Source of the DNA: Chromatiales bacterium | GTDB taxonomy: Bacteria; Pseudomonadota; Gammaproteobacteria; Xanthomonadales; SZUA-36 | Length of the DNA stretch: 63,798 nt | Direction of reading: 5' to 3' | NCBI GenBank assembly: GCA_024640025.1 | Contig: JAHEFT010000003.1 | Location: 1-63,798 of the forward strand | In this document: positions 49,286 through 60,128 of the stretch, in pieces | Layout of the letters: each line of letters opens with the position of its first letter | How positions within the stretch are numbered: the first letter of the stretch is position 1 | The notes under the pieces: generated by a model | What the model was told of the DNA's origin: nothing | What the model saw: only the letters and a program-made list of their open reading frames with translations | The model's database searches: none | Translations under genes and position numbers: made by a program

Positions 49286-49313
49286 TTGAAGCGGGTCGCG
49301 GGTATGGGATAAT
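49286..49313 (+). promoter_or_regulatory. Promoter of the exported kinase-like/dikinase operon
   Basis: TTGAAG (49286-49291) and GATAAT (49308-49313) are separated by 16 bases. Transcription would begin near 49320, about 40 bases before the ATG at 49361. Confidence 0.6.
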
Positions 49314-49360: not shown

Positions 49361-50842
49361 ATGATTTCCAACTCCAGAGTCTTGCTGCCCCGATTCAGGT
49401 GGCGCCTGCTATCCCCGTGGCTTGCTGGGTCTGCACTGGCGCTGGCTGCCGGTGTGCTTTCCGCTGCCCCGGTAGAGGGCGAAGTATCGGAGTTTCCGCT
49501 GGACAACGGCTTGATCGAGCGTTGTATCCGCATCGCCGACTTCCCCGGCGCGCATTATTCAAAACATGATCACAAGCAGGAAAAAACCTATTGCTCACTA
49601 GATTTTTCGCAACTCGCCCTGTGTCCCAAGCTGTGGAGCACCAGTCCCGGAACCATCGTCTACGATATTGATGTTGCCGCGTATGGGGGAGACTATGCCC
49701 AGTTCGAGCGCCAGCATTGCGCCGAAGGGCATCATGCGCGCGAAGCGGCCCGGCACAAGCCCGGCACGTTCAAGATTTCGGTCAATGCCCGCGACACCAG
49801 TGCGACTTACGCGCCTTCTGCGTGGGTCTACTACCACTTTTCCCGCTACTTCCACACCGGCATCCACGTTCCCGTGGCAGTGTACCGAAGCATGGACGTA
49901 AAAAAGCATAATGTCCGCGTGACCAAACCGGCGCTTGAAATCGTCGCCAACCGGCACGGCCTGGGTATGTTAAAGGCCGGCTGGCGTTTCCTCGATGCGA
50001 TTGAGACGGGTAACGAAAAGGGCAGCGGCGCGGCGGCCGCGCTCACCGACGATGGCCGACAGGTTTTCGGCGTGTTGCTGGACAACGAGGGTGACCGTTA
50101 CGGCGCGGAGTTCAATGGCACCCGTGAATCCGGGTGGGGCGCCGGGCAAAACAACGACTTTCAACAGACTGCTCCGTACCTGGCCCTGCGCAGTGGCGAT
50201 CCCGTACCGGAAGCCGCGCGTGAAGCCATCCACGAAGCCCGCAAAAATCCGAAGATGGCCAGTGCCCTGGCGGCGAATACGCCGGTAGAGCAGGTGATAT
50301 TCTGGATGCAGGACGTGCTCGAAATCACGCTGCTCGACTACATTCTGGGGCAGCAGGACCGCATCGGGAATATCGACTACAACTGGCGTTGGTACTGGGT
50401 CGAGGATGGCAAGCTGAAGTCCAGACACGCGCATGATTCGAACGTTCCCGCCGAGTTAGCGTCTTTCAACCCGCAACGTCTGAAGCAATCGGCCATTAAC
50501 GACAACGATGCCGGCGTGCGCCCGGGCTATGCTGATTTCGCCGCGAAAACCCACATGCTCGACGGATTGCGGCACTATCATGCGGGCCTGTACCAGCGCC
50601 TTGGCCGCCTGGCGGCAGACCTGGGCGACAAGGGCCCTGCGTGGCTCTGGATGACGGAAAATGCGGGTCTCAGCAACCGGGAAGCGGAGGCCATCGCCAA
50701 TCGGACCATGACCGCATTTGCACTGCTGCAATCCGACTGCCGGAGCGGCGCTTTGAGGCTGGATCTGGATCCAATGATGGTGCTGTTGCCGGGGGCCGCC
50801 AATAACCCGGAAGCTGCGGCCTCCTGCGAACTTGACCCTTGA
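49361..50842 (+). CDS. Exported protein with atypical-kinase-like catalytic loop
   Basis: I use the ATG at 49361 (493 residues); a TTG at 49340 would add seven. A basic start (RVLLPRFRWRLL) and a hydrophobic stretch ending near GVLSAAPVEG form a signal peptide. In the middle, LDYILGQQDRIGN (Asp333, Asn337) followed 22 residues later by HAHDSN (Asp359) resembles the catalytic loop and metal-binding Asp of HipA/Fam20-type atypical kinases (GN-x-DRH-x-x-N ... D). An earlier PGTFKIS (Lys138) could be the ATP-binding lysine. I do not recognise a named family. It is followed, with overlapping codons, by a phosphoesterase. Confidence 0.65.
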   Translation: MISNSRVLLPRFRWRLLSPWLAGSALALAAGVLSAAPVEGEVSEFPLDNGLIERCIRIADFPGAHYSKHDHKQEKTYCSLDFSQLALCPKLWSTSPGTIVYDIDVAAYGGDYAQFERQHCAEGHHAREAARHKPGTFKISVNARDTSATYAPSAWVYYHFSRYFHTGIHVPVAVYRSMDVKKHNVRVTKPALEIVANRHGLGMLKAGWRFLDAIETGNEKGSGAAAALTDDGRQVFGVLLDNEGDRYGAEFNGTRESGWGAGQNNDFQQTAPYLALRSGDPVPEAAREAIHEARKNPKMASALAANTPVEQVIFWMQDVLEITLLDYILGQQDRIGNIDYNWRWYWVEDGKLKSRHAHDSNVPAELASFNPQRLKQSAINDNDAGVRPGYADFAAKTHMLDGLRHYHAGLYQRLGRLAADLGDKGPAWLWMTENAGLSNREAEAIANRTMTAFALLQSDCRSGALRLDLDPMMVLLPGAANNPEAAASCELDP

Positions 50843-51810
50843 TCCTTTCGCGTTTTTTCAGCCTGTTACTGCTGCTCTTGAGCAGCAATCTCCCGGCCCA
50901 GTCGATCGCATTGATCTCTGACCTGAACGGCCGCTATGGCAGCACATCCTATGACAGCCGGGTCAGTGAAGCCATCGATGCCGTGATACGCATCCGGCCG
51001 GACCTCGTTATCTCGACCGGCGATATGGTGGCGGGCCAGAAACAGCCAGGCCTCGACCAGGAACGGCTCGACCGGATGTGGGCCGGATTCAACCTGGCCG
51101 TGACCGACCCGCTGGACCGTGCCGGGATCCCGTTCCTGGTGACACCCGGCAACCATGACGGCTCGGGTTATCCCGAATTTGCACTGGAACAAAAACGCTT
51201 CGAGGCGCAGTGGGCCTCGCGGATTCCTGAAATCAGCCTCATGCCGGGCAGCGAGTGGCCGCGGCGCTATGTGGCGCGCATGGGCGGAGTACTGATGGTG
51301 GCGTTCGACGGGACACGGCCAGGCGCATTGCCGGAAACCGAGTTTGTCTTTGTCGAACGCATGCTGCGCGCCTATGGGACCTCGGCCGAAGTCACCCTGG
51401 CCTTTTCACACCTGCCAATGTGGCCGCTGGCGCAGCAGCGCGAGCACGAAATTCTCGACGATCCCGCCCTGCTTGAACTGCTCCACGAAAATGGTGTGGA
51501 TGCCTACATCAGCGGCCACCACCATGTATTCTATGCCGGCATCGACTCGGCCGGCATGGTTCACCTTGGCGTGGGCGCCCTGGGCGGCAACGCCCGCAAG
51601 GTCGTCGGCGAAAGGACGCGGCAACCCTTCAGTTTTGCCGTGCTGGATTTATCGAACGGCCTCGTCGACGTGCGCTCGCTGGCGAATCCGGGCTTCACCG
51701 GTGGAGTGCCTCTTGATCTGCAGCCAGAGTCGATCAGCGGGCCTCTGGGTGTGCTGCACCGGCTGGATGCCCCGGCCCAATTGCGGCAAATCAAATCGGT
51801 GGATGACTGA
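50839..51810 (+). CDS. Exported metallophosphoesterase (calcineurin fold)
   Basis: A 323-residue protein with a TTG start overlapping the previous stop (TTGA). A signal peptide (about 1-21, ending NLPAQS) precedes the phosphoesterase motifs: SDLNG at 27-31, GDMV at 61-64, GNHD at 104-107, SHLP at 190-193 and GHHH at 226-229. The first motif is normally D-x-H; here it is D-L-N, with Asn in place of the metal-ligand His. The rest of the site is intact. Its place between a kinase-like gene and a dikinase-like gene suggests it removes phosphate that these add, in the periplasm. That is inference. Confidence 0.85.
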   Translation: MILSRFFSLLLLLLSSNLPAQSIALISDLNGRYGSTSYDSRVSEAIDAVIRIRPDLVISTGDMVAGQKQPGLDQERLDRMWAGFNLAVTDPLDRAGIPFLVTPGNHDGSGYPEFALEQKRFEAQWASRIPEISLMPGSEWPRRYVARMGGVLMVAFDGTRPGALPETEFVFVERMLRAYGTSAEVTLAFSHLPMWPLAQQREHEILDDPALLELLHENGVDAYISGHHHVFYAGIDSAGMVHLGVGALGGNARKVVGERTRQPFSFAVLDLSNGLVDVRSLANPGFTGGVPLDLQPESISGPLGVLHRLDAPAQLRQIKSVDD

Positions 51811-51847
51811 CGTCAAAAATTAAGTATCCTAATGCGATGAATCAACA

Positions 51848-54820
51848 ATGGAAAATCCTATGCCCCAGCTGAAACGCTCCAACCGGGACCGCGCCATGCG
51901 CTTTTACCTGGTTGTATTTTTATCCGCGCTTTTCCTTTCGACTTCGCTGTATTCCGCTGAAAGCCGGGAGACTGCAGACCTCCAGAAATACCGCGGATGG
52001 ATAGAAGCAATGAAAACGGAGGAACGCGGGCCTTTCTCGCGGATCCGCTGGTTCTGCGATGACGGCTCTGTGTTGCCACCCAAAGCCTACGCTTGCGAAA
52101 GCCATGGAGGCGGCTACCAGCATGGCGAATGGAACGAGTACACCAAGGACCTTAGGGCGCAGGGCTACTGGGTAGCCAACCTGCTGGCCGGCACGGACGC
52201 CGATGCATTCCTGGCCGACCCGCAATTCGATGACCGCTTCGCGCAGATCGTGATCGAACGCTACCTGGTCAGCGCTGACGATGGCTGGATTCTCAGGCAT
52301 GCGCTGTTCTATCGCGGCGCCATCCAGGAAGAGGACGAACGGGAAGCCGCGCGGGCATTGTTGACTGAAATGGCTTCCCGCCCCGAATGGATTGGGGCAG
52401 GATTCACCACCCTGCGCACCGGTGTGCGCATGCTACCGCACGGCGCCAACAGCGCTTCGGTGCAAAAAGTCCGGCAACTGTCTGCCTCGCTGTCCGACCG
52501 GGACGATGGCTTCAAACCACTGCGGGCCAAGATTCACGGGGCGCCTGGGGCCGAAGATGCGGAACGCGTGCGGGAATACGCGAACGCTCTCAGCAATGAG
52601 GCTGCGCGCCAGCCTTACCTTGAACTGGCGAACGAGATTGACCTGATCTTCCAATCGGCCCCCCTCGATGACGAACTTGAACAACTGTCGGCAAAATACA
52701 CCGCCGCCCCCTGGTTGCAGGAAATGCTGGCCGGCGCGGCAACCGGCCTTCGTGCCGATGCGTCGGCGGCAAACCGTTACACGATAACCGGTATCCTGCT
52801 CGCCGACCTGCGCCGTTCGCTGCCTCGCGTCAAGTCCGCCACAGCACGGCTCGAACTGCTGGACCTGGGCCTGCGCGTGGAGAGCACCAATTTCCGCACC
52901 GCTTCGGAGTTACGCGCCAGCCTTGCGGAACAGACACGCCTGCAGCGGCTTGAATACCTGGAGGCGGCCGGCCAGGCTGCCTTCGGCACAGGTGTGATCA
53001 ACGAACGCCTGCTGGATGAGCTGATGAAAACCCTGGAGTCACTGACCATTGAGCCGCTGATCCTGGACCGCTACCTGGACGGCCTCAATTACCTGGGGCG
53101 GGCTCCGGGCTGGGGTACGCAAGACCTGCGCATGCCGTTCTACAGCTCGATGGAAAAAATGGCCGAGATCGAGCCAATGGCCATGCTTTTCATCCAGGAC
53201 CAGCTTCGCGGCAGCCCGCTGCTGTTTTTCTCCAACGTCCTGGACGGGCTGTCGCGCGACGCCAACCGCCTGGCTGGAGTTAAACACGGCCTGTTTGGAC
53301 AATCCGTGGGTGTAGGCTTCACCGCTCTCAACCCTGGATTGGCGACTGGCGTTTTGTACGTTGAACCCGACCTGAGCAACCTGGAAAATTTCAAAGCTGA
53401 CGGCATCTACGTGCTGCCCGAAACCGTGTCGGACCTGCCGCCGGTAGCCGGCATCCTGACTGAAGGCGAGGGCAACCCTTTGTCCCACGTGCAGTTGCTC
53501 GCTCGAAACCTCGGCATTCCCAACGTCACTGTGGATAGTTCCCTGGGCCCGGTGTTGGCGGCACACAGCGGCGAACGCGTGGTGTTGGCCGTGAGCAAGT
53601 CGGGGTTGGTCGAGCTGTCCGCCTGGGACGATGGCTGGAGCGATATATTTGCCGAAGCCGGCGCTGGCCAGGGCGTGCAGATCAACCCCGATCTGGACAA
53701 GCTCGATCTGTCGGTGCAGCGCTTCATACCGCTGGACGATCTGCGTGCCTCGGATTCCGGCCGCATCGTCGGGCCCAAGGCTGCCAAGCTTGGCGAATTG
53801 CGCAAGCACTACCCGGGCCATGTTTCCCGCGGTGTCGCAATCCCTTTTGGCATGTTCCGCCAGGAGGCGCTGGAGCAACCCCACGCCGGGGGTGAAGGAA
53901 CGGTGTTTGACTGGATGGTCAAAAGCTACCAGCAACTGGCCGAAATTCCGCTGGACGACCCGCGCCGCGCCGGAATGGTCGAGGCTTTCCGCTCGGAGTT
54001 GTATGACATTATCGTCAACACGCGTCCCAGCGACGAATTTCAGCAACAGCTGAAAGTGGCCATGAATGACGCTTTTGGATCGGCTAATCCGCCCGGGGTA
54101 TTCGTTCGTTCAGACACCAACGTGGAAGACCTGGCAGGATTCACCGGCGCCGGGTTAAACCTGACGCTGCCGAACGTGGTGGGCTTTGATAACCTGCTCA
54201 AGAGCATTGCCGAAGTCTGGGCCTCACCTTTTACCGCCCGGGCGTTTGCCTGGCGGCAGTCCCACATGACACGGCCCGAGCACGTATACACGTCCATCCT
54301 GCTGCTGGAGTCGGTAGCGTCTGACAAGTCAGGCGTCCTGGTGACCCAGGACATCGATACCGGCAACCGGGATGTGATCTCGGTTGCAGTCAATGAAGGC
54401 CTCGGCGGCGCCGTCGACGGCCAGGCCGCGGAATCGTTGCGCATCGCCCTTGACGGTTCCTACGTGCGCGTTCTGGCAACCGCGACAGCCCCATGGCGGC
54501 GGGTCCCGGACCCGCAAGGTGACCTGCAGTTCCTGCCCAGCAGCGGCAGCAATGTCGTCCTGCAGCCCGGTGAGATCGCGCAGTTGATCGACTTCGCCAG
54601 TGGCCTGCCAAAAAATTTCCCGCCGATTACGGACGATGAGGGTAATCCGGCACCGGCGGATGTAGAATTTGGTTTTCTTGACGGCGATCTTCGATTGTTC
54701 CAGCTCAGGCCCTTTCTTGAAAGCAAGATGGCGCGTGGTATCGGGTACCTGCATGAAATGGAAGCAAGGCTCGCGGACACCGCCAGCATCACGGTTGACC
54801 TGAATGGAGTTCCGCAATGA
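51848..54820 (+). CDS. Exported dikinase-like protein (phosphohistidine domain plus ATP-grasp domain)
   Basis: A 990-residue reading; the true start may be the ATG at 51860 or 51896, the last giving the signal peptide MRFYLVVFLSALFLSTSLYS directly. The first 490 residues are a helical region I do not recognise. Then comes a phosphohistidine (PEP-utilising mobile) domain with GNPLSHVQLLARNLGIPN, His547 being the predicted phosphate carrier. The C-terminal third is a PPDK-N type ATP-grasp domain: GPKAAKLGEL, VFVRSDTNVEDLAGFTGAG (Arg754), then DVEFGFLDGDLRLFQLRPF (Glu940, Gln952, Arg954). The order His-domain then ATP-grasp, and the VEDLAGFTGAG and EVWASPFT wording, recall glucan-water dikinases more than PEP synthase. 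Confidence 0.8.
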   Translation: MENPMPQLKRSNRDRAMRFYLVVFLSALFLSTSLYSAESRETADLQKYRGWIEAMKTEERGPFSRIRWFCDDGSVLPPKAYACESHGGGYQHGEWNEYTKDLRAQGYWVANLLAGTDADAFLADPQFDDRFAQIVIERYLVSADDGWILRHALFYRGAIQEEDEREAARALLTEMASRPEWIGAGFTTLRTGVRMLPHGANSASVQKVRQLSASLSDRDDGFKPLRAKIHGAPGAEDAERVREYANALSNEAARQPYLELANEIDLIFQSAPLDDELEQLSAKYTAAPWLQEMLAGAATGLRADASAANRYTITGILLADLRRSLPRVKSATARLELLDLGLRVESTNFRTASELRASLAEQTRLQRLEYLEAAGQAAFGTGVINERLLDELMKTLESLTIEPLILDRYLDGLNYLGRAPGWGTQDLRMPFYSSMEKMAEIEPMAMLFIQDQLRGSPLLFFSNVLDGLSRDANRLAGVKHGLFGQSVGVGFTALNPGLATGVLYVEPDLSNLENFKADGIYVLPETVSDLPPVAGILTEGEGNPLSHVQLLARNLGIPNVTVDSSLGPVLAAHSGERVVLAVSKSGLVELSAWDDGWSDIFAEAGAGQGVQINPDLDKLDLSVQRFIPLDDLRASDSGRIVGPKAAKLGELRKHYPGHVSRGVAIPFGMFRQEALEQPHAGGEGTVFDWMVKSYQQLAEIPLDDPRRAGMVEAFRSELYDIIVNTRPSDEFQQQLKVAMNDAFGSANPPGVFVRSDTNVEDLAGFTGAGLNLTLPNVVGFDNLLKSIAEVWASPFTARAFAWRQSHMTRPEHVYTSILLLESVASDKSGVLVTQDIDTGNRDVISVAVNEGLGGAVDGQAAESLRIALDGSYVRVLATATAPWRRVPDPQGDLQFLPSSGSNVVLQPGEIAQLIDFASGLPKNFPPITDDEGNPAPADVEFGFLDGDLRLFQLRPFLESKMARGIGYLHEMEARLADTASITVDLNGVPQ

Positions 54821-56097
54821 AGGCTTCATGGAATGTGAAAGGCGTCAGCCTGTTTCTCACAATCTTTCTAACGTGTTCCGGGACCCTGATGGCGTATCCG
54901 CTGGACGGCTACGAGGAGACCGGAATTCGGCGCGTCGAAGGCGCCAGGCTGGCCAACGAAGGTCGCGCCATCGGTGGATTTCAGCCGCCCGGCGCCATGT
55001 TGACCACCGAACAGGTGGATTTGCGGCTGCTCGATCACCGCGACCTGGTCCTGCCTGCCCCGGACCCGGAATTCACAGCCAGGGTGACCGCGTTGCTGGG
55101 TGAAGACAAGAACGCCTACGGGGTTGCCGTGCTTGATCTCACAGATCCGGACCATCCGCTGTTTGCGGAATACCGCGGCGATTACAGACAAAATGTCGGC
55201 AGTGTCGGCAAACTGCTTGCCGCGCTCGGTCTGTTCCAGGCGCTGGCCGACGCCTGGCCGGAAGATTTCGACCGCCGCAAGCAGATTTTACGCGACACGG
55301 TCATCACCGCCGACGACTTTGCCCACCGTGACCACCACTCGGTTCGGTTCTTCAACGTCGAAACCCGCGAACTGACCCGGCGCACCATCCAGGACGGGGA
55401 CCAGGGCAGTTTGTGGGAATACCTGGACTGGATGCTGTCGGTCAGTTCGAACTCCGCGGCGGCCATGGTGATGCGTGACGCGATGCTGCTGCGCCACTTC
55501 GGCCAGGCCTACCCGGTGTCCGAGGATCAAATCGACGCCTTTTTCCGCGATACATCGCGCGCGGACCTGACCCGGCTTTTTCAACGGACCTTCTGGGAGC
55601 CGGTAACGCGCAACGGCTTGTCACTCGACCAGATCCGGCAGGGCAGCTTTTTCACCGCCCAGGGCAAGAAAAACGTCAACGGCGGCGGCAACAGCTATGC
55701 AACGGCAGAAAGCCTGCTGCAGCTCGTGCTGATGATAGAGGAAGGCAAGCTGGTAGACGAATGGAGCAGCCGTCAATTGAAACGCCTGCTGTACATGACT
55801 GAACGGCGTATCAGGTACGCCTCCTCGCCTGCCCTGAACGAAGCGGCGGTGTATTTCAAATCCGGCTCGCTCTACAAGTGCAAGGAAGAAGAGGGCTTCA
55901 AGTGCTCCGCCTACCACGGCAACGTCATCAATTACATGAATTCGGTGGCCATTGTTGAGCAGGAGGTAGACGGCGTGAAACTGCATTATGCCGTGATCGT
56001 GATCTCGAACGTTTTGCGCAAGAATTCCGCTGAGAAGCACCAGGCCCTGGGCACGGAGATACACCGGTTGATCAAGCAAATGCACGGCCTTGAGTGA
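54817..56097 (+). CDS. Exported serine hydrolase (class A beta-lactamase/transpeptidase fold)
   Basis: A 426-residue protein whose ATG overlaps the dikinase stop (ATGA). It has a signal peptide (about 1-26). The penicillin-interacting enzyme motifs are in order: S-x-x-K as SVGK at 129-132, S-x-N as SSN at 210-212, and K-S-G at 348-350. Cysteines in KCKEEEGFKC near the C-terminus could form a disulfide. It could be a D,D-peptidase, lactamase or esterase in the periplasm. Coupling to the dikinase-like gene implies a joint role. Confidence 0.82.
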   Translation: MKASWNVKGVSLFLTIFLTCSGTLMAYPLDGYEETGIRRVEGARLANEGRAIGGFQPPGAMLTTEQVDLRLLDHRDLVLPAPDPEFTARVTALLGEDKNAYGVAVLDLTDPDHPLFAEYRGDYRQNVGSVGKLLAALGLFQALADAWPEDFDRRKQILRDTVITADDFAHRDHHSVRFFNVETRELTRRTIQDGDQGSLWEYLDWMLSVSSNSAAAMVMRDAMLLRHFGQAYPVSEDQIDAFFRDTSRADLTRLFQRTFWEPVTRNGLSLDQIRQGSFFTAQGKKNVNGGGNSYATAESLLQLVLMIEEGKLVDEWSSRQLKRLLYMTERRIRYASSPALNEAAVYFKSGSLYKCKEEEGFKCSAYHGNVINYMNSVAIVEQEVDGVKLHYAVIVISNVLRKNSAEKHQALGTEIHRLIKQMHGLE

Positions 56098-56151: not shown

Positions 56152-56805
56152 ATGAACAAATGGATGTTAGTTACCGTCGCCGCAGCTGCATCGTGGATCA
56201 ATGCATGTTCCGCGGACTCCACCGAGGCGCGGTGTGATATTTATCCCGCCGGTGACGACCGGGCCAGTGCCATGCTGCCCTGCACATTCAGCCAGCGCCA
56301 GGGGTACGTGACCATTTACCGCAACGACGGTGTCACGTACGACCTTTCTCCAGTGGGAGAAGATCCTGGAAACTATGTCGACCAGCATGGAAACGCGGCC
56401 TATCGGCAAAGCGGAATGGGGGACCAGGGGCTCATTTTCCGCATGAAAGACGAATCCGTGTGGGTCTACTGGAGCACCGCCGGTTTGTACCCGCGGGACG
56501 AGGACAACGCCACCTGGCCTTTCACAACAGCCGACTATGACGCCACCACGCTCCTGAACTGTCGCGCGGCAGGCGACTCCGAATTCGGCAATTGCCCGGC
56601 TGGCGTCCTCCGCATGGAAGACAACCAGGCTTCGGTCACGGTTCAGAACCAGCTGGGTGAACAGTTCACTATCAACTTCATGACCGATTACGTCAATGCG
56701 GCCAATCGTGAAGTAAAGGCCGTTCTCAAAGACGATACCTGGACCGTTACCGTGAACAATGGCGAGGTCTACGAAGTCCCATTGGGCCTTATCGAGGGTG
56801 GCTAA
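56152..56805 (+). CDS. Exported protein of unknown function, probable lipoprotein
   Basis: A 217-residue protein with AAGGAG before the ATG and a signal sequence ending WINAC, where Cys19 could be lipidated. The mature part is beta-rich and Trp/Tyr-containing, with cysteines (RCDIYP, LPCTFS, NCRAAG, NCPAGV) likely in disulfides. No family is recognised. It lies 54 bases after the serine hydrolase and may be the fifth gene of that transcript. Confidence 0.6.
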   Translation: MNKWMLVTVAAAASWINACSADSTEARCDIYPAGDDRASAMLPCTFSQRQGYVTIYRNDGVTYDLSPVGEDPGNYVDQHGNAAYRQSGMGDQGLIFRMKDESVWVYWSTAGLYPRDEDNATWPFTTADYDATTLLNCRAAGDSEFGNCPAGVLRMEDNQASVTVQNQLGEQFTINFMTDYVNAANREVKAVLKDDTWTVTVNNGEVYEVPLGLIEGG

Positions 56806-56824
56806 CACCGGGAGAGAAATTTCC

Positions 56825-57874
56825 ATGAAATACATGAAACAGGTTTTAGCGGTAGCACCATTGCTACTGTTCGTCATTTTAACGACTGGCTGTTCACCGG
56901 AAGGCGGAAGTCGGCAACCCGCGGCAAACGCTGGGGCTGAACCGGCAGTGGCGGTTGTTGAAGAGCAAGCCCGGGAAAGCGAAGCGGTTTCTGCGCTGAC
57001 GGGGACTTCGTGGCGGCTGGTGCAAATCATGGGTATGGATGACAGCGTCGCTGAGCCGGAAGATCGTTCGCTCTACACGCTGGAATTCAACGCAGACGGA
57101 CAAGCTGCCGTGCGCGCGGATTGCAACCGGGGGATGGGATCCTGGACCTCGGAGTCTGCAGGGCAGCTGCAGTTTGGCCCGATCGCCACGACCCGGGCCA
57201 TGTGCCCGCCCGGTTCAATCTCTGACAAATACCTGGCCCAGTTCGAGTGGGTGCGCAGCTACGTGATGAAGGACGGCCACCTGTTTCTGGCCACCATGGC
57301 CGATGGAGCGATCATCGAGTTTGAACCGGCGCCAACGACGCCACCGGATGCGGTTGTGCTGGGTGAGGAGGTTCGCACGACGGACGCCGACGAAATGCAG
57401 CAGGTCATCATCACCCGCCTGTTTGATCAGTATGCGGCCGAGCGCGGCATCGAGGCGGCGGACGAAGAAATCGAAGCATTCGTGCAAAATATGCGCCGTG
57501 GAATGGCCGCGCAGGGAATGTTGGATGCGGAAAACGACCTGACAGCAGAGGAATTGGTGCAGGTAGAGACCATGCGGCGGGACATAGCCCGATCAATCAT
57601 CCGCCAATGGAAACTGAACCGGGCGCTCTACGGCCAGTACGGCGGCCGAATCATTTACCAGCAACTCGGTCCTGAACCACTGGACGCCTACCGGGTATTC
57701 CTCGAGGAACGTCAGCAATCCGGCGATTTCAGGATCGAAGACTCAGCGTTTGAAGAAGAATTCTGGCGCTATTTCACCGATGAATCGAAACACGATTTCA
57801 TGGCGCCGGGCAGCGCTGATGAGAACCGGGCCTTTGCCATACCACCCTGGGAGCAAACGGATGAAAGCTCCTGA
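56825..57874 (+). CDS. META-domain lipoprotein with an extra C-terminal helical domain
   Basis: I choose the ATG at 56825 (349 residues) because GGGAGAG precedes it and a lipobox LTTGC (Cys23) follows. Residues of about 60-170 form a META (HslJ-like) domain: LTGTSWRLVQIMG, then CNRGMGSWT, then ATTRAMCPPG. A C-terminal part of about 165 residues is strongly helical and acidic (ITRLFDQYAAERGIEAADEEIEAFVQ), resembling the N-terminal helical part of SurA-type chaperones, though I cannot confirm that. META domains occur in heat-shock or envelope-stress lipoproteins. Confidence 0.72.
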   Translation: MKYMKQVLAVAPLLLFVILTTGCSPEGGSRQPAANAGAEPAVAVVEEQARESEAVSALTGTSWRLVQIMGMDDSVAEPEDRSLYTLEFNADGQAAVRADCNRGMGSWTSESAGQLQFGPIATTRAMCPPGSISDKYLAQFEWVRSYVMKDGHLFLATMADGAIIEFEPAPTTPPDAVVLGEEVRTTDADEMQQVIITRLFDQYAAERGIEAADEEIEAFVQNMRRGMAAQGMLDAENDLTAEELVQVETMRRDIARSIIRQWKLNRALYGQYGGRIIYQQLGPEPLDAYRVFLEERQQSGDFRIEDSAFEEEFWRYFTDESKHDFMAPGSADENRAFAIPPWEQTDESS

Positions 57875-57911: not shown

Positions 57912-60128
57912 TCAGTCCCCCCATCCCAACATGTTTCGCATGATGGACCATCTCGGTTCGGTATTCTCGATACCCTGCCCGGTCACCCAGTAATCAAACT
58001 TGCGGTCGACCAGGCCGATGTTTTCCGCATAAATGATCCATTCGTTGATGACCTGGACGAGATCATCTGCGCCGGGGGCAACACCAAAGCCCGTTGAAAT
58101 TTTCACCGGGTCCGGTTGCGGCACCACAACGGTGAATTCGGGGTGCAGCAGGCTCCAGGCGGATGCGTGTTCAGCCGGCAGGAGGAAAGCGTCGACTTCC
58201 GGGTGTTGCCCTTCGAAGTAGGCATTCCAGAACTCGATGGGTACGAACTCGGCGTCGGTACCTCCGAAATAGTGTTCGATGCTGTACCCGATTTGGGTCA
58301 AGTCCAGCGGCACGCCAACCTTCAGGCCCTGTTGCCGCCGAATCTTTTCCAGCGTATCGAATTCGTGGCGGCGTTCATCGTGCACGGCCAGGCCCGCGGT
58401 AGCCGTGTAATACGGATCGGACAGCATGAGCGACTGGAACCAGAAGGGTCGGTACCACATTCCAGGCATGATATCGATATCGCCGTCCGCCAGCATGCGG
58501 GGCAGTTCAGACCAGTCCACGGGAACAAACTCGGCGCGCAGATCCAACGCCATCGACAATTCTTCGGCCAACTCGACATCGAAGCCCACCAACTGGCCAT
58601 CGGCATTGAAGAAACTCATGGGCAGGTTGTTCGGGTCATACCCGATGCGCAGCGATCCGCGCGCGCGCGCGTCGGCCAATGAACCTTTCCTGCGCTCTTC
58701 GCTGTCGTCCCGGAAGAACAGGTCGCGGTGCACCACGGTCTCTGCAGACAGAGTGGTCTGGTGCATGTTTTTCATGGCTTCGTCGAGCGTGTAGCCGGTA
58801 TCGATTGTGAAGGCGAAGAGTATTCGCAAGGCGACCACGGACAGCGCCACGCTTCCAAGAATTCCAACCGCGGCCCGCAGCAGACGCGCCCGTTTAAAGA
58901 CCAGGAACCCGCTCAGCGCTCCGGCCCCGAGCAGGGCGAAGACCAGCAGGTTCATCGCCGTCACCAGTGAATCAAATTTTCCGGTGATGATGGTCGTGGG
59001 TATGTAGAGTTGGAACAAATCCTGTGGCAGGCCAAAAAGGTCGAGCAGGAAGGGCAGTGCAATCTGCGCCTTGGCAAAATAGCTTGGTATACCGGCCGCC
59101 ATCAGCGAGCCGTAATCTCCACCGGCCAGCGGAGCGCCGGCCAGCCAGGCTGCAAAGGGTATGAACAGCAACGTCAATAATTTGCCGGCGTTGGGGAAGT
59201 TGAACAGTACCGGTATCAGTACCTCGGCGGCCGAGTCGGCATTGTCGTCCAGCAGGCCATGCTGCTCCAGCAGTTGCTTCGACCGGGACACCAGGATAGG
59301 CAACACGATAAAGGCGCTGTTGGCGACGAAGGCAGTCAATAGAGCGTCACGGGCTATCCCTGCTACCTCACGATACCGGAAGGGGGTCACCGCAGTGACC
59401 AGGAATGGCAGGATGATGAAGGCCAGCAACAACGACGCCACGGAAAAAACAATGAAATAAACTTCGAGCCGCGAAATGGTCTCCGGGTCCATGGTGCCGG
59501 CGGTGACCGCGCCAATTGCGAACACGCCATAGGGTGTCAGGTCGATCACGAAACCGGTGATGCGCACGATCGCCTGGTTCCAGGTACGCAACGGGGCGAT
59601 CAGTCGTTCTTTATCCTCAAGCCCGATCAGACCGATACCGATCAGGCAGCTGAACAGCACCACGGCGGGCACGACGTTCTGCGACAGCGAGGCAAAGGGG
59701 TTCGAAGTGAAATAAATCTCCGTCAGGGAAATGTCATTCCGCTGCTCAACCAGCGAATGGCTGAAAAACGAGGCGCTGTCGAAAACCGGGAAGGTCAACG
59801 GCATGAGCACAAGCACCAGGATGGTCAATGCCCAAACAATGAGCAGCAGGATGCCGCCGCGCAGCGCCAGCCGCTTCGCCTCGCCAACGTCCAGCTGGCC
59901 AAAACCGACTACCAGCGATGTGATCAGGTAAGGCAGGACCGTCATCTGCATCAGGCGGATATAGATATCGGCGACCGGCTGCAAAACCCCGGCAGGCTCG
60001 CCAAAAAAGAGGCCGGTAAAAATTCCGAGCCCCAGGCCTATCATGATGCGCGCGGAAAGGCTCAGGCCAGACCAGCCGGTAATCAATTTCTGTAAGGTAG
60101 TTCGGGATTGATTGGCCGTTTCTGTCAT
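57912..60128 (-). CDS. Fusion of an SDF dicarboxylate/amino-acid symporter with a solute-binding protein domain
   Basis: A 738-residue protein. The first roughly 430 residues are a DctA/GltP-type cation symporter (SDF family) with FIVLPILVSRSKQLLEQHG and the substrate-site region VLFNFPNAGKLLTLLF. After two further helices (about 425-465) comes an SBP_bac_3 domain from about residue 510 (GSLRIGYDPNNLPMSFFNADGQLVGFDVELAEELSMALD), as in periplasmic amino-acid-binding proteins. So a secondary transporter carries its own binding protein at the C-terminus, on the periplasmic face if the helix count is right. Such combinations are uncommon. Ligands are probably dicarboxylates or acidic amino acids. 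Confidence 0.88.
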   Translation of the reverse strand: MTETANQSRTTLQKLITGWSGLSLSARIMIGLGLGIFTGLFFGEPAGVLQPVADIYIRLMQMTVLPYLITSLVVGFGQLDVGEAKRLALRGGILLLIVWALTILVLVLMPLTFPVFDSASFFSHSLVEQRNDISLTEIYFTSNPFASLSQNVVPAVVLFSCLIGIGLIGLEDKERLIAPLRTWNQAIVRITGFVIDLTPYGVFAIGAVTAGTMDPETISRLEVYFIVFSVASLLLAFIILPFLVTAVTPFRYREVAGIARDALLTAFVANSAFIVLPILVSRSKQLLEQHGLLDDNADSAAEVLIPVLFNFPNAGKLLTLLFIPFAAWLAGAPLAGGDYGSLMAAGIPSYFAKAQIALPFLLDLFGLPQDLFQLYIPTTIITGKFDSLVTAMNLLVFALLGAGALSGFLVFKRARLLRAAVGILGSVALSVVALRILFAFTIDTGYTLDEAMKNMHQTTLSAETVVHRDLFFRDDSEERRKGSLADARARGSLRIGYDPNNLPMSFFNADGQLVGFDVELAEELSMALDLRAEFVPVDWSELPRMLADGDIDIMPGMWYRPFWFQSLMLSDPYYTATAGLAVHDERRHEFDTLEKIRRQQGLKVGVPLDLTQIGYSIEHYFGGTDAEFVPIEFWNAYFEGQHPEVDAFLLPAEHASAWSLLHPEFTVVVPQPDPVKISTGFGVAPGADDLVQVINEWIIYAENIGLVDRKFDYWVTGQGIENTEPRWSIMRNMLGWGD

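Follow-up and report, generated by a model that had tools for sequence, protein, structure and literature searches.

Genes for a predicted exported dikinase-like protein and an SxxK hydrolase recur as a pair, commonly beside a gene of the NTT/TLC ATP/ADP-carrier family

According to a 2020 review, the route by which cytosolic ATP reaches the periplasm is unclear, and Gram-negative bacteria are not known to encode a homolog of an ATP-ADP translocase (PMC7432876). A paper on NTT carriers describes them as widespread in free-living bacteria, with an unknown role there, and states that every functionally characterised member is from a parasite or an endosymbiotic organelle and serves uptake (PMC5381601); the words kinase, periplasm and export are absent from its main text. 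An ATP-fed compartment is described in the abstract of a study of the endoplasmic reticulum (ER), whose lumen lacks ATP of its own and is supplied by the ATP/ADP exchanger SLC35B1/AXER (PMC12267056). Here, we analyse a stretch of 63,798 nucleotides from contig JAHEFT010000003.1 of an uncultured Chromatiales bacterium (GCA_024640025.1), called the window, which contains four consecutive genes on the plus strand. The genes A and B encode a kinase-fold protein and a metallophosphoesterase, and the genes C and D encode a dikinase-like protein and an SxxK serine hydrolase. The comparison with other genomes suggests that C and D belong to a widespread and undescribed gene set, often including an ATP/ADP carrier, and that bacteria may in this way supply ATP to extracytoplasmic enzymes.

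The arrangement of the four genes in the original prediction, which had been made from the window alone, was borne out in its coordinates, its two overlaps and its 37-base gap. Gene A (49361..50842, +), with an ATG start and a signal peptide, encodes a predicted exported kinase-like protein of 493 amino acids. It is followed by B (50839..51810, +), which starts with a TTG codon in a TTGA overlap with the stop codon of A and encodes a predicted exported calcineurin-fold metallophosphoesterase of 323 amino acids. C (51848..54820, +) begins 37 bases after B and encodes a predicted exported dikinase-like protein of 990 amino acids, with an alternative start at Met17 (position 51896). D (54817..56097, +) overlaps C in an ATGA motif and encodes a predicted exported SxxK serine hydrolase of the beta-lactamase/PBP type with 426 amino acids. 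The single plausible promoter that had been proposed ahead of A is represented by a sigma-70-like site at 49286-49313 (+) with 9/12 matches, which is weak support, as three such sites were seen in this region versus 2.4 expected by chance.

To judge from sequence and gene order, C and D are a conserved gene pair, usually accompanied by a gene for a second SxxK hydrolase, D2, and commonly by a gene for a protein of the NTT/TLC ATP/ADP-carrier family, T. One genome of each species was scanned, with GEGNPLSH as one of two search patterns. This identified 94 relatives of C, of which the best 80 loci were used, giving 81 C loci with the window included. The 80 loci are mostly from Gammaproteobacteria, with some Desulfobacterota by title, and the cultured carriers include the marine bacteria Parahaliea, Halioglobus, Aestuariicella and Agaribacterium, whose genomes measure 3.4-5.1 Mb. 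D is located directly after C on the same strand in 68 of the 74 loci that have at least 600 bases of room, a count that leaves out the seven of the 81 C loci with less than 600 bases after C, and five of the six loci without D in this position have it within 6 kb. D2, T and a further recurrent neighbour, G, were found by clustering the genes that neighbour C. Among the 39 C loci that are well flanked (5 kb or more on each side), D2 is present in 33, T in 25 (long-form T proteins being counted as T), G in seven, and A and B in four; the corresponding numbers for all 81 C loci are 55, 44, 15 and seven. The linked T proteins of the 25 well-flanked loci score at least 401 bits against the T profiles.

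For a second sample, genomes taken evenly across the class Gammaproteobacteria were searched with a profile. The 19 C loci obtained contain D in 18 cases, D2 in 13 and T in 13, with the reservation that four of these loci (L175-L178) are on contigs that were already in the first sample and that the T of L187, counted in the 13, falls below the PF03219 cut-off and is better described as an MFS protein. The 15 loci that are new contain D, D2 and T in 14, 12 and 12 cases. None of 20 control loci of similar length around genes for phosphoenolpyruvate (PEP) synthase contained A, B, D, D2, T or G; since 19 of the 20 are from genomes without a full-length C, they test chance neighbourhood rather than neighbourhood within C genomes. 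One group of C-D loci (L086, L091, L094-L099 and L103-L105) has a Lon protease, a fusion of a response regulator with a Ser/Thr protein kinase, and an AFG1-type ATPase as recurrent neighbours, which is probably plain synteny. Two loci carry unexpected titles: L103 is titled "Klebsiella pneumoniae", but its T clusters with gammaproteobacterial metagenome sequences, and L081 is titled "Halobacteria archaeon", but its C is 61% identical to that of the window. Both are probably mislabelled bins.

C represents an uncharacterised exported protein family. It shares an ATP-grasp domain and a mobile phosphohistidine domain, including the catalytic histidine, with PEP synthase, PPDK and rifampin phosphotransferase. 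Residues 640-958 match the Pfam family PPDK_N (2.8e-24), and residues 524-560 match the mobile (His) domain of the PEP-utilizers (1.6e-4), at 21.6 bits and thus below the gathering score of 23.1. In the structure model (mean pLDDT 85.6), the signal peptide is followed by a helical N-terminal region (residues 43-476), a phosphohistidine domain (approximately residues 479-594) and an ATP-grasp domain (residues 622-963; 53711..54736, +), the last of which gives VIA-align fold matches with Z scores of 33.3 to rifampin phosphotransferase 5hv1, 30.9 to PEP synthase 2ols and 22.3 to PPDK. Residues 479-594 match the phosphohistidine domain of rifampin phosphotransferase 5fbu with a Z score of 9.9. The predicted phosphohistidine, His547 (codon 53486..53488, +), is conserved in 82/82 sequences, an invariance that is in part selected, since the surrounding GEGNPLSH is one of the two patterns used to find the relatives of C. 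Lys644 (82/82), Arg754 (81/81), Glu940 (78/78) and Gln952 (78/78) are likewise invariant, and we take these residues to have the ATP-site roles of their counterparts in PPDK.

C differs from PEP synthase, PPDK and rifampin phosphotransferase in that it has an export signal, a His domain placed before the ATP-grasp domain, and a helical N-terminal region in place of the PEP/pyruvate domain. A PEP/pyruvate-binding barrel was not found, with no further Pfam match at E<=0.1, and the protein outside the His and ATP-grasp domains is helical in the model; searched within the full-length model, the N-terminal helical region gave no convincing fold match. The score of C against the rifampin phosphotransferase equivalog is 67.8 bits, with a cut-off of 999, and the ATP-grasp domain, which is C-terminal in C, aligns from residue 1 on in rifampin phosphotransferase. 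That C is an ordinary cytosolic PEP synthase or rifampin phosphotransferase was rejected, as the domain order, the export signal and the missing barrel argue against it. The order of a phosphohistidine domain and a C-terminal ATP-grasp domain is presumably the same as in plant glucan, water dikinase. C differs from that enzyme, however, in having no Pfam carbohydrate-binding domain and in being exported from bacteria instead of plastidic, and there is no glucan, water dikinase model among its Pfam matches.

The sequence of D matches the Pfam family Beta-lactamase2 (6.6e-7) and contains the SxxK motif with Ser129 (codon 55201-55203) and Lys132, the SxN motif at residues 210-212 and the K(S/T)G motif at residues 348-350, as well as Cys355 and Cys363. 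The three motifs are conserved in 74/74, 73/73 and 68/68 sequences, respectively. D2 matches the same family more strongly (6e-20), and its SxxK, SxN and KSG motifs are invariant in 23 sequences. Profile searches against the PDB were weak, with best E-values of 0.29 for D and 0.005 for D2. The window contig is contig C109 of a 2.9-Mb assembly (155 contigs, 82% complete), and contig C62 of the same genome contains a second copy of C (L003:2722-5766, -) that is 56% identical to the copy in the window. This second copy is convergent with a D2 gene and has no D beside it.

The T proteins are by profile members of the NTT/TLC carriers (PF03219), the family of Chlamydia, Rickettsia and plastids. T was identified by a match to PF03219 (TLC) at 2.7e-11, and 28 of the 32 T representatives match this family at E<=0.001, while four do not; the model for NTP/NDP exchange transporters is matched by 25/32. 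HEAT repeats are present in 5/32 and recall the NTT-HEAT fusions described in passages of PMC5381601. A search of the PDB with the T profile retrieved the ADP,ATP carriers 9j3n (1.2e-40) and 9j3j (8.4e-36) as by far the best solved relatives. Among the charged residues that we take to matter in such carriers, the lysines at positions 51 and 383 of the L116 protein are invariant in all 32 rows, and an AKxxID-type motif is kept, but the glutamic acid of AELWGS is replaced (see below). The T proteins differ from the characterised NTTs in that their genes are placed, in cultured marine bacteria as well, beside genes for predicted exported enzymes that use ATP. A tree of 78 sequences places the linked T proteins in at least four well-supported deep clades, suggesting that different NTT subfamilies may have joined C-D more than once; the tree contains only 11 unlinked rows, has long branches that were flagged and does not fix the number of joining events. 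On contig C131 of the window genome, a T-family gene overlaps a gene for a DcuC-type C4-dicarboxylate carrier (L142:5936-8675, -).

The association between C and the carrier family is also seen at the genome level. C is present in 23 of 232 Gammaproteobacteria, and with a PF03219 cut-off of E<=1e-6, set beforehand, the family was detected in 17 of these 23 genomes versus nine of the 209 others (Fisher p 9.8e-15), so that C is carried by 17 of the 26 PF03219-containing genomes of this sample. A profile named A7 gave T in 21/23 C carriers versus 4/209 others, but this test is biased, as the profile was built from linked T proteins, and the Pfam test was relied on instead. The matches obtained among the relatives at E<=1e-3 (30 of 61 genomes) were left unused for the association because matches of 19-30 bits resemble MFS cross-matches. 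Among the 14 well-flanked loci without a linked T, 13 are from genomes that hold a T of more than 350 bits elsewhere: nine of ten genomes examined together, L063 being the exception, and those of the window, L071, L114 and L089.

Consistent with the signal peptides that had been assigned to all four genes, the proteins A, B, C and D look exported. Their N-termini all satisfy a home-made rule for Sec signal peptides that asks for a positive residue, an uncharged hydrophobic stretch of 11 residues and a small-x-small site. For the window and its relatives together, the rule is passed by 8/9 testable frames of A, 6/6 of B, 69/73 of C, 32/32 of D and 52/53 of D2; frames that were truncated or had no anchor were left out of these counts (2/11 for A, 5/11 for B, 9/82 for C and 42/74 for D). 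In contrast, none of the 15 testable PEP synthases passes; these come from 19 control loci, with start codons assigned by a rule of the same type. With a slightly different start rule, 59/78 of C, 55/67 of D, 47/57 of D2, 7/7 of B and 4/7 of A pass, versus 0/11 Lon, 0/8 ZapE-like and 0/8 response-regulator kinase proteins, and 39 of 276 other recurrent neighbour reading frames of at least 250 amino acids pass as well. Conserved cysteines provide independent support, as expected of disulfide-bearing exported proteins: there are six in A (55, 78, 88, 120, 460 and 489), one pair in C (Cys70 in 77/78 and Cys83 in 77/77 sequences) and one pair in D.

The genes A and B are a second and, to judge from their distribution, rarer module that joins C-D loci. 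They are located near C-D in 7/81 C loci, which agrees with the proposed genomic linkage. A-B precede C-D on the same strand in the window, L042 and L051, lie convergently downstream in L053, L071 and L114, and follow C-D on the same strand in L116. L042 repeats the same-strand order A-B-C-D of the window, with approximately 1.2 kb between B and C, and together with the other arrangements in five further loci this points to more than chance. A-B-T are contiguous in L051, L053 and L116. The locus L051, from the cultured strain Aestuariicella albida HHU G3-2, combines A-B-T-C-D with D2 and G, and L066 of Agaribacterium haliotis has the order D2-C-D-T. Among 61 relatives, seven of the nine carriers of A also have C versus four of the 52 others (p 2.4e-5, or 9e-4 when only the family is considered), and B adjoins A on the same strand in 12 of the 14 genomes in which A was seen. 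A was found in only 2/232 genomes of the class sample and 2/249 of a phylum sample, the window genome being included in both. The search for co-occurrence in other genomes recovered the predicted gene order in L042, but a single four-gene unit was rejected: C is common, whereas A, and A-B beside C-D, are rare, and the four genes are not one conserved unit. In a genome of the same genus, a phospholipase-D-family gene (PLDc_2 2.6e-42; L132:7179-8753, +) overlaps the start of A and is a possible further member of the A-B operon. A distant A gene in L172 (G123:C19, 4053-8264) adjoins a gene with LRR, Roc-COR and TIR domains.

The functional calls of the original prediction hold for B, C and D by domain matches, and the call for A is suggested by its predicted fold. 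A has no match in Pfam or NCBIfam and represents another uncharacterised exported protein family. Its fold neighbours are Fam20C (Z 11.5 over 267 residues, 4.4 A), PI4KIIalpha (Z 10.1), CtkA (Z 9.1) and HipA (Z 7.3), and Fam20C has, like A by prediction, a secretory location. A differs from these kinases in that its sequence matches neither their families nor, in PDB searches, any member of the Fam20/PI4K/HipA group; the only PDB sequence match was phosphorylase kinase gamma (E 0.004), which aligns with a part of A that does not include the candidate active site, and Foldseek gave an E-value of 0.6 at best. The candidate catalytic or metal residues are Asp333 in QQDRxGN (codon at 50357) and Asp383 in DNDAG (codon at 50507). 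The putative active-site residues Asp333, Asn337 and Asp383 are conserved in 11/11 sequences, and the six cysteines, Asp333 and Asp383 are present wherever a row covers the respective column (10 or 11 rows). B matches Metallophos (9.5e-17), and its nearest PDB profile matches are purple acid phosphatases (3.2e-6). The seven residues that we take to bind the metal are conserved in 11/11 sequences.

The invariant catalytic residues are in line with the phosphoryl-transfer chemistry that had been predicted, and the literature searches, which covered open-licence PMC papers, likewise found no described system of this composition. We tentatively read the window as encoding part of a periplasmic phosphotransfer system that is energised by ATP, and see the case for this as falling just short of evenly balanced. 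The broader proposal, that some free-living bacteria energise the periplasm on purpose by exporting cytosolic ATP through an NTT-family carrier to exported phosphotransfer enzymes (a dikinase and a Fam20-like kinase), is more doubtful, but a real possibility. An enzyme that is exported with its ATP site intact requires ATP at its place of action, and a gene of the ATP/ADP-carrier family is a recurrent neighbour here; the most economical reading is that T feeds ATP to the periplasm and returns ADP or AMP. T, found beside the same genes in other genomes, is therefore a candidate answer to the problem of ATP supply outside the cytoplasm that had been left open. In such a system, T in the inner membrane would exchange cytosolic ATP for periplasmic ADP or AMP, and the ATP-grasp domain of C would use the exported ATP to phosphorylate its own His547 in a dikinase-like reaction that releases AMP and phosphate. 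The His domain would then pass the phosphoryl group to, or activate, an envelope substrate held by the helical N-terminal domain. D and D2 would act on the same envelope substrate as C, and where A-B is present, A would phosphorylate and B dephosphorylate a second exported target; B, D and D2 would process the same or related targets. A peptide or peptidoglycan-like substrate is a guess, favoured only because two SxxK enzymes are linked, and the glycan or peptidoglycan part that had been proposed is likewise a guess.

This exporting arrangement would make the system a bacterial counterpart of the ATP-fed lumen of the ER and Golgi, an analogy that is as doubtful as the export by T of which it is part. 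The two would work alike without being related: the ER is a eukaryotic organelle, and SLC35B1/AXER belongs to a carrier family unrelated to T. The link found here between gammaproteobacterial NTT-family proteins and predicted exported ATP-using enzymes makes the questions of periplasmic ATP and of the role of NTTs directly testable in cultured marine strains. The families of A and C are also brought out here as two uncharacterised exported protein families.

Several observations weigh against the proposed system. Individual T proteins score only 20-68 bits for PF03219, 16 of the 32 representatives also match MFS_1, and the first T member reaches 36.7 bits for TIGR00769, for which the curated cut-off is 387; nucleotide transport by T is therefore not certain. 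The glutamic acid of AELWGS in both solved carriers is replaced by Gly or Asp in the short T proteins and by Ala, Ser, Thr or Gly in the long ones, and the direction of transport cannot be read from the sequence. A linked T is missing from 14 of the 39 well-flanked C loci, including the window, whose contig contains neither T nor D2, and the T search found no T at all in the genome of L063. The best T of the window genome, on contig C131, has 39 bits for PF03219 and misses the genome-wide cut-off of E<=1e-6, making this genome one of six C carriers that do so. The A-B module is not always associated with C-D either, as A is present without C in G011 and G017, and the distant A genes in G123 and G389 have no B, C or D beside them. 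Finally, the kinase fold of A is suggested by the predicted structure, and that model is moderate (mean pLDDT 62.6; from residue 271 on, most ten-residue blocks are at 73-93, with dips to 45).

Two other explanations are unlikely, each to a similar degree. According to the first, the genes serve salvage: T would import ATP/ADP or another nucleotide, as in parasites and plastids, and A, B and C would act on external nucleotides or phosphorylated compounds. The uptake roles of the characterised NTTs, all from parasites or endosymbiotic organelles in the passages of PMC5381601, point in this direction, and an exported metallophosphoesterase (B) together with a solute-binding and symport protein (G) would fit scavenging. 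However, salvage calls for phosphatases and not for a kinase fold or a dikinase active site that is invariant, no PEP/pyruvate domain that could make ATP from PEP was found in C, and the two SxxK hydrolases, with D2 in 33/39 loci, would be left without a role. According to the second, which we likewise consider improbable, the genes serve cell-wall or peptide maintenance, or detoxification, without periplasmic ATP. C would be a binding or sensing protein using trace or external ATP, T would carry another substrate, its link to ATP being a coincidence of family membership, and D and D2 would be PBP- or beta-lactamase-like enzymes. The MFS_1 matches of T and its divergence at one acidic position agree with this, as do the SxxK, SxN and KSG motifs kept in D2, but C keeps the residues that ATP use should require without exception in 78-82 sequences, and T matches TLC in 28/32 cases with ATP/ADP carriers as its best solved relatives by far. 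It is very improbable that A and C are secreted effectors that work within a host, prey organism or neighbouring cell and use its ATP, which T would steal. In favour of this, CtkA, a Helicobacter kinase titled "proinflammatory", is a fold neighbour of A, and NTTs are frequently taken as a hallmark of life inside cells (PMC5381601). Against it, some carriers are cultured marine bacteria whose genomes measure 3.4-5.1 Mb, and no part of a secretion system was found among the recurrent neighbours identified by Pfam, which are only some of the neighbours.

Other origins and functions were considered for the four genes. A role in anti-phage defence was rejected, as there is no PADLOC match for A-D of the window, the T of L051 or the D2 of L114, and so was a phage origin, as none of A-D gave a PHROGs match. 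Spread of C by plasmids was also rejected: 71 plasmid records were matched, all below 60% identity and none spanning 80% of C.

Downstream of D, the window contains two small exported lipoprotein-like genes (56152-57874, +), the second of which has a META domain, followed by the gene for G (57912..60128, -), a sodium:dicarboxylate symporter fused to a family-3 solute-binding domain (Pfam SDF 4.8e-46, SBP_bac_3 2.2e-18). A relative of the first small gene, 66.5% identical, is also found near L042 (the same locus as L033).

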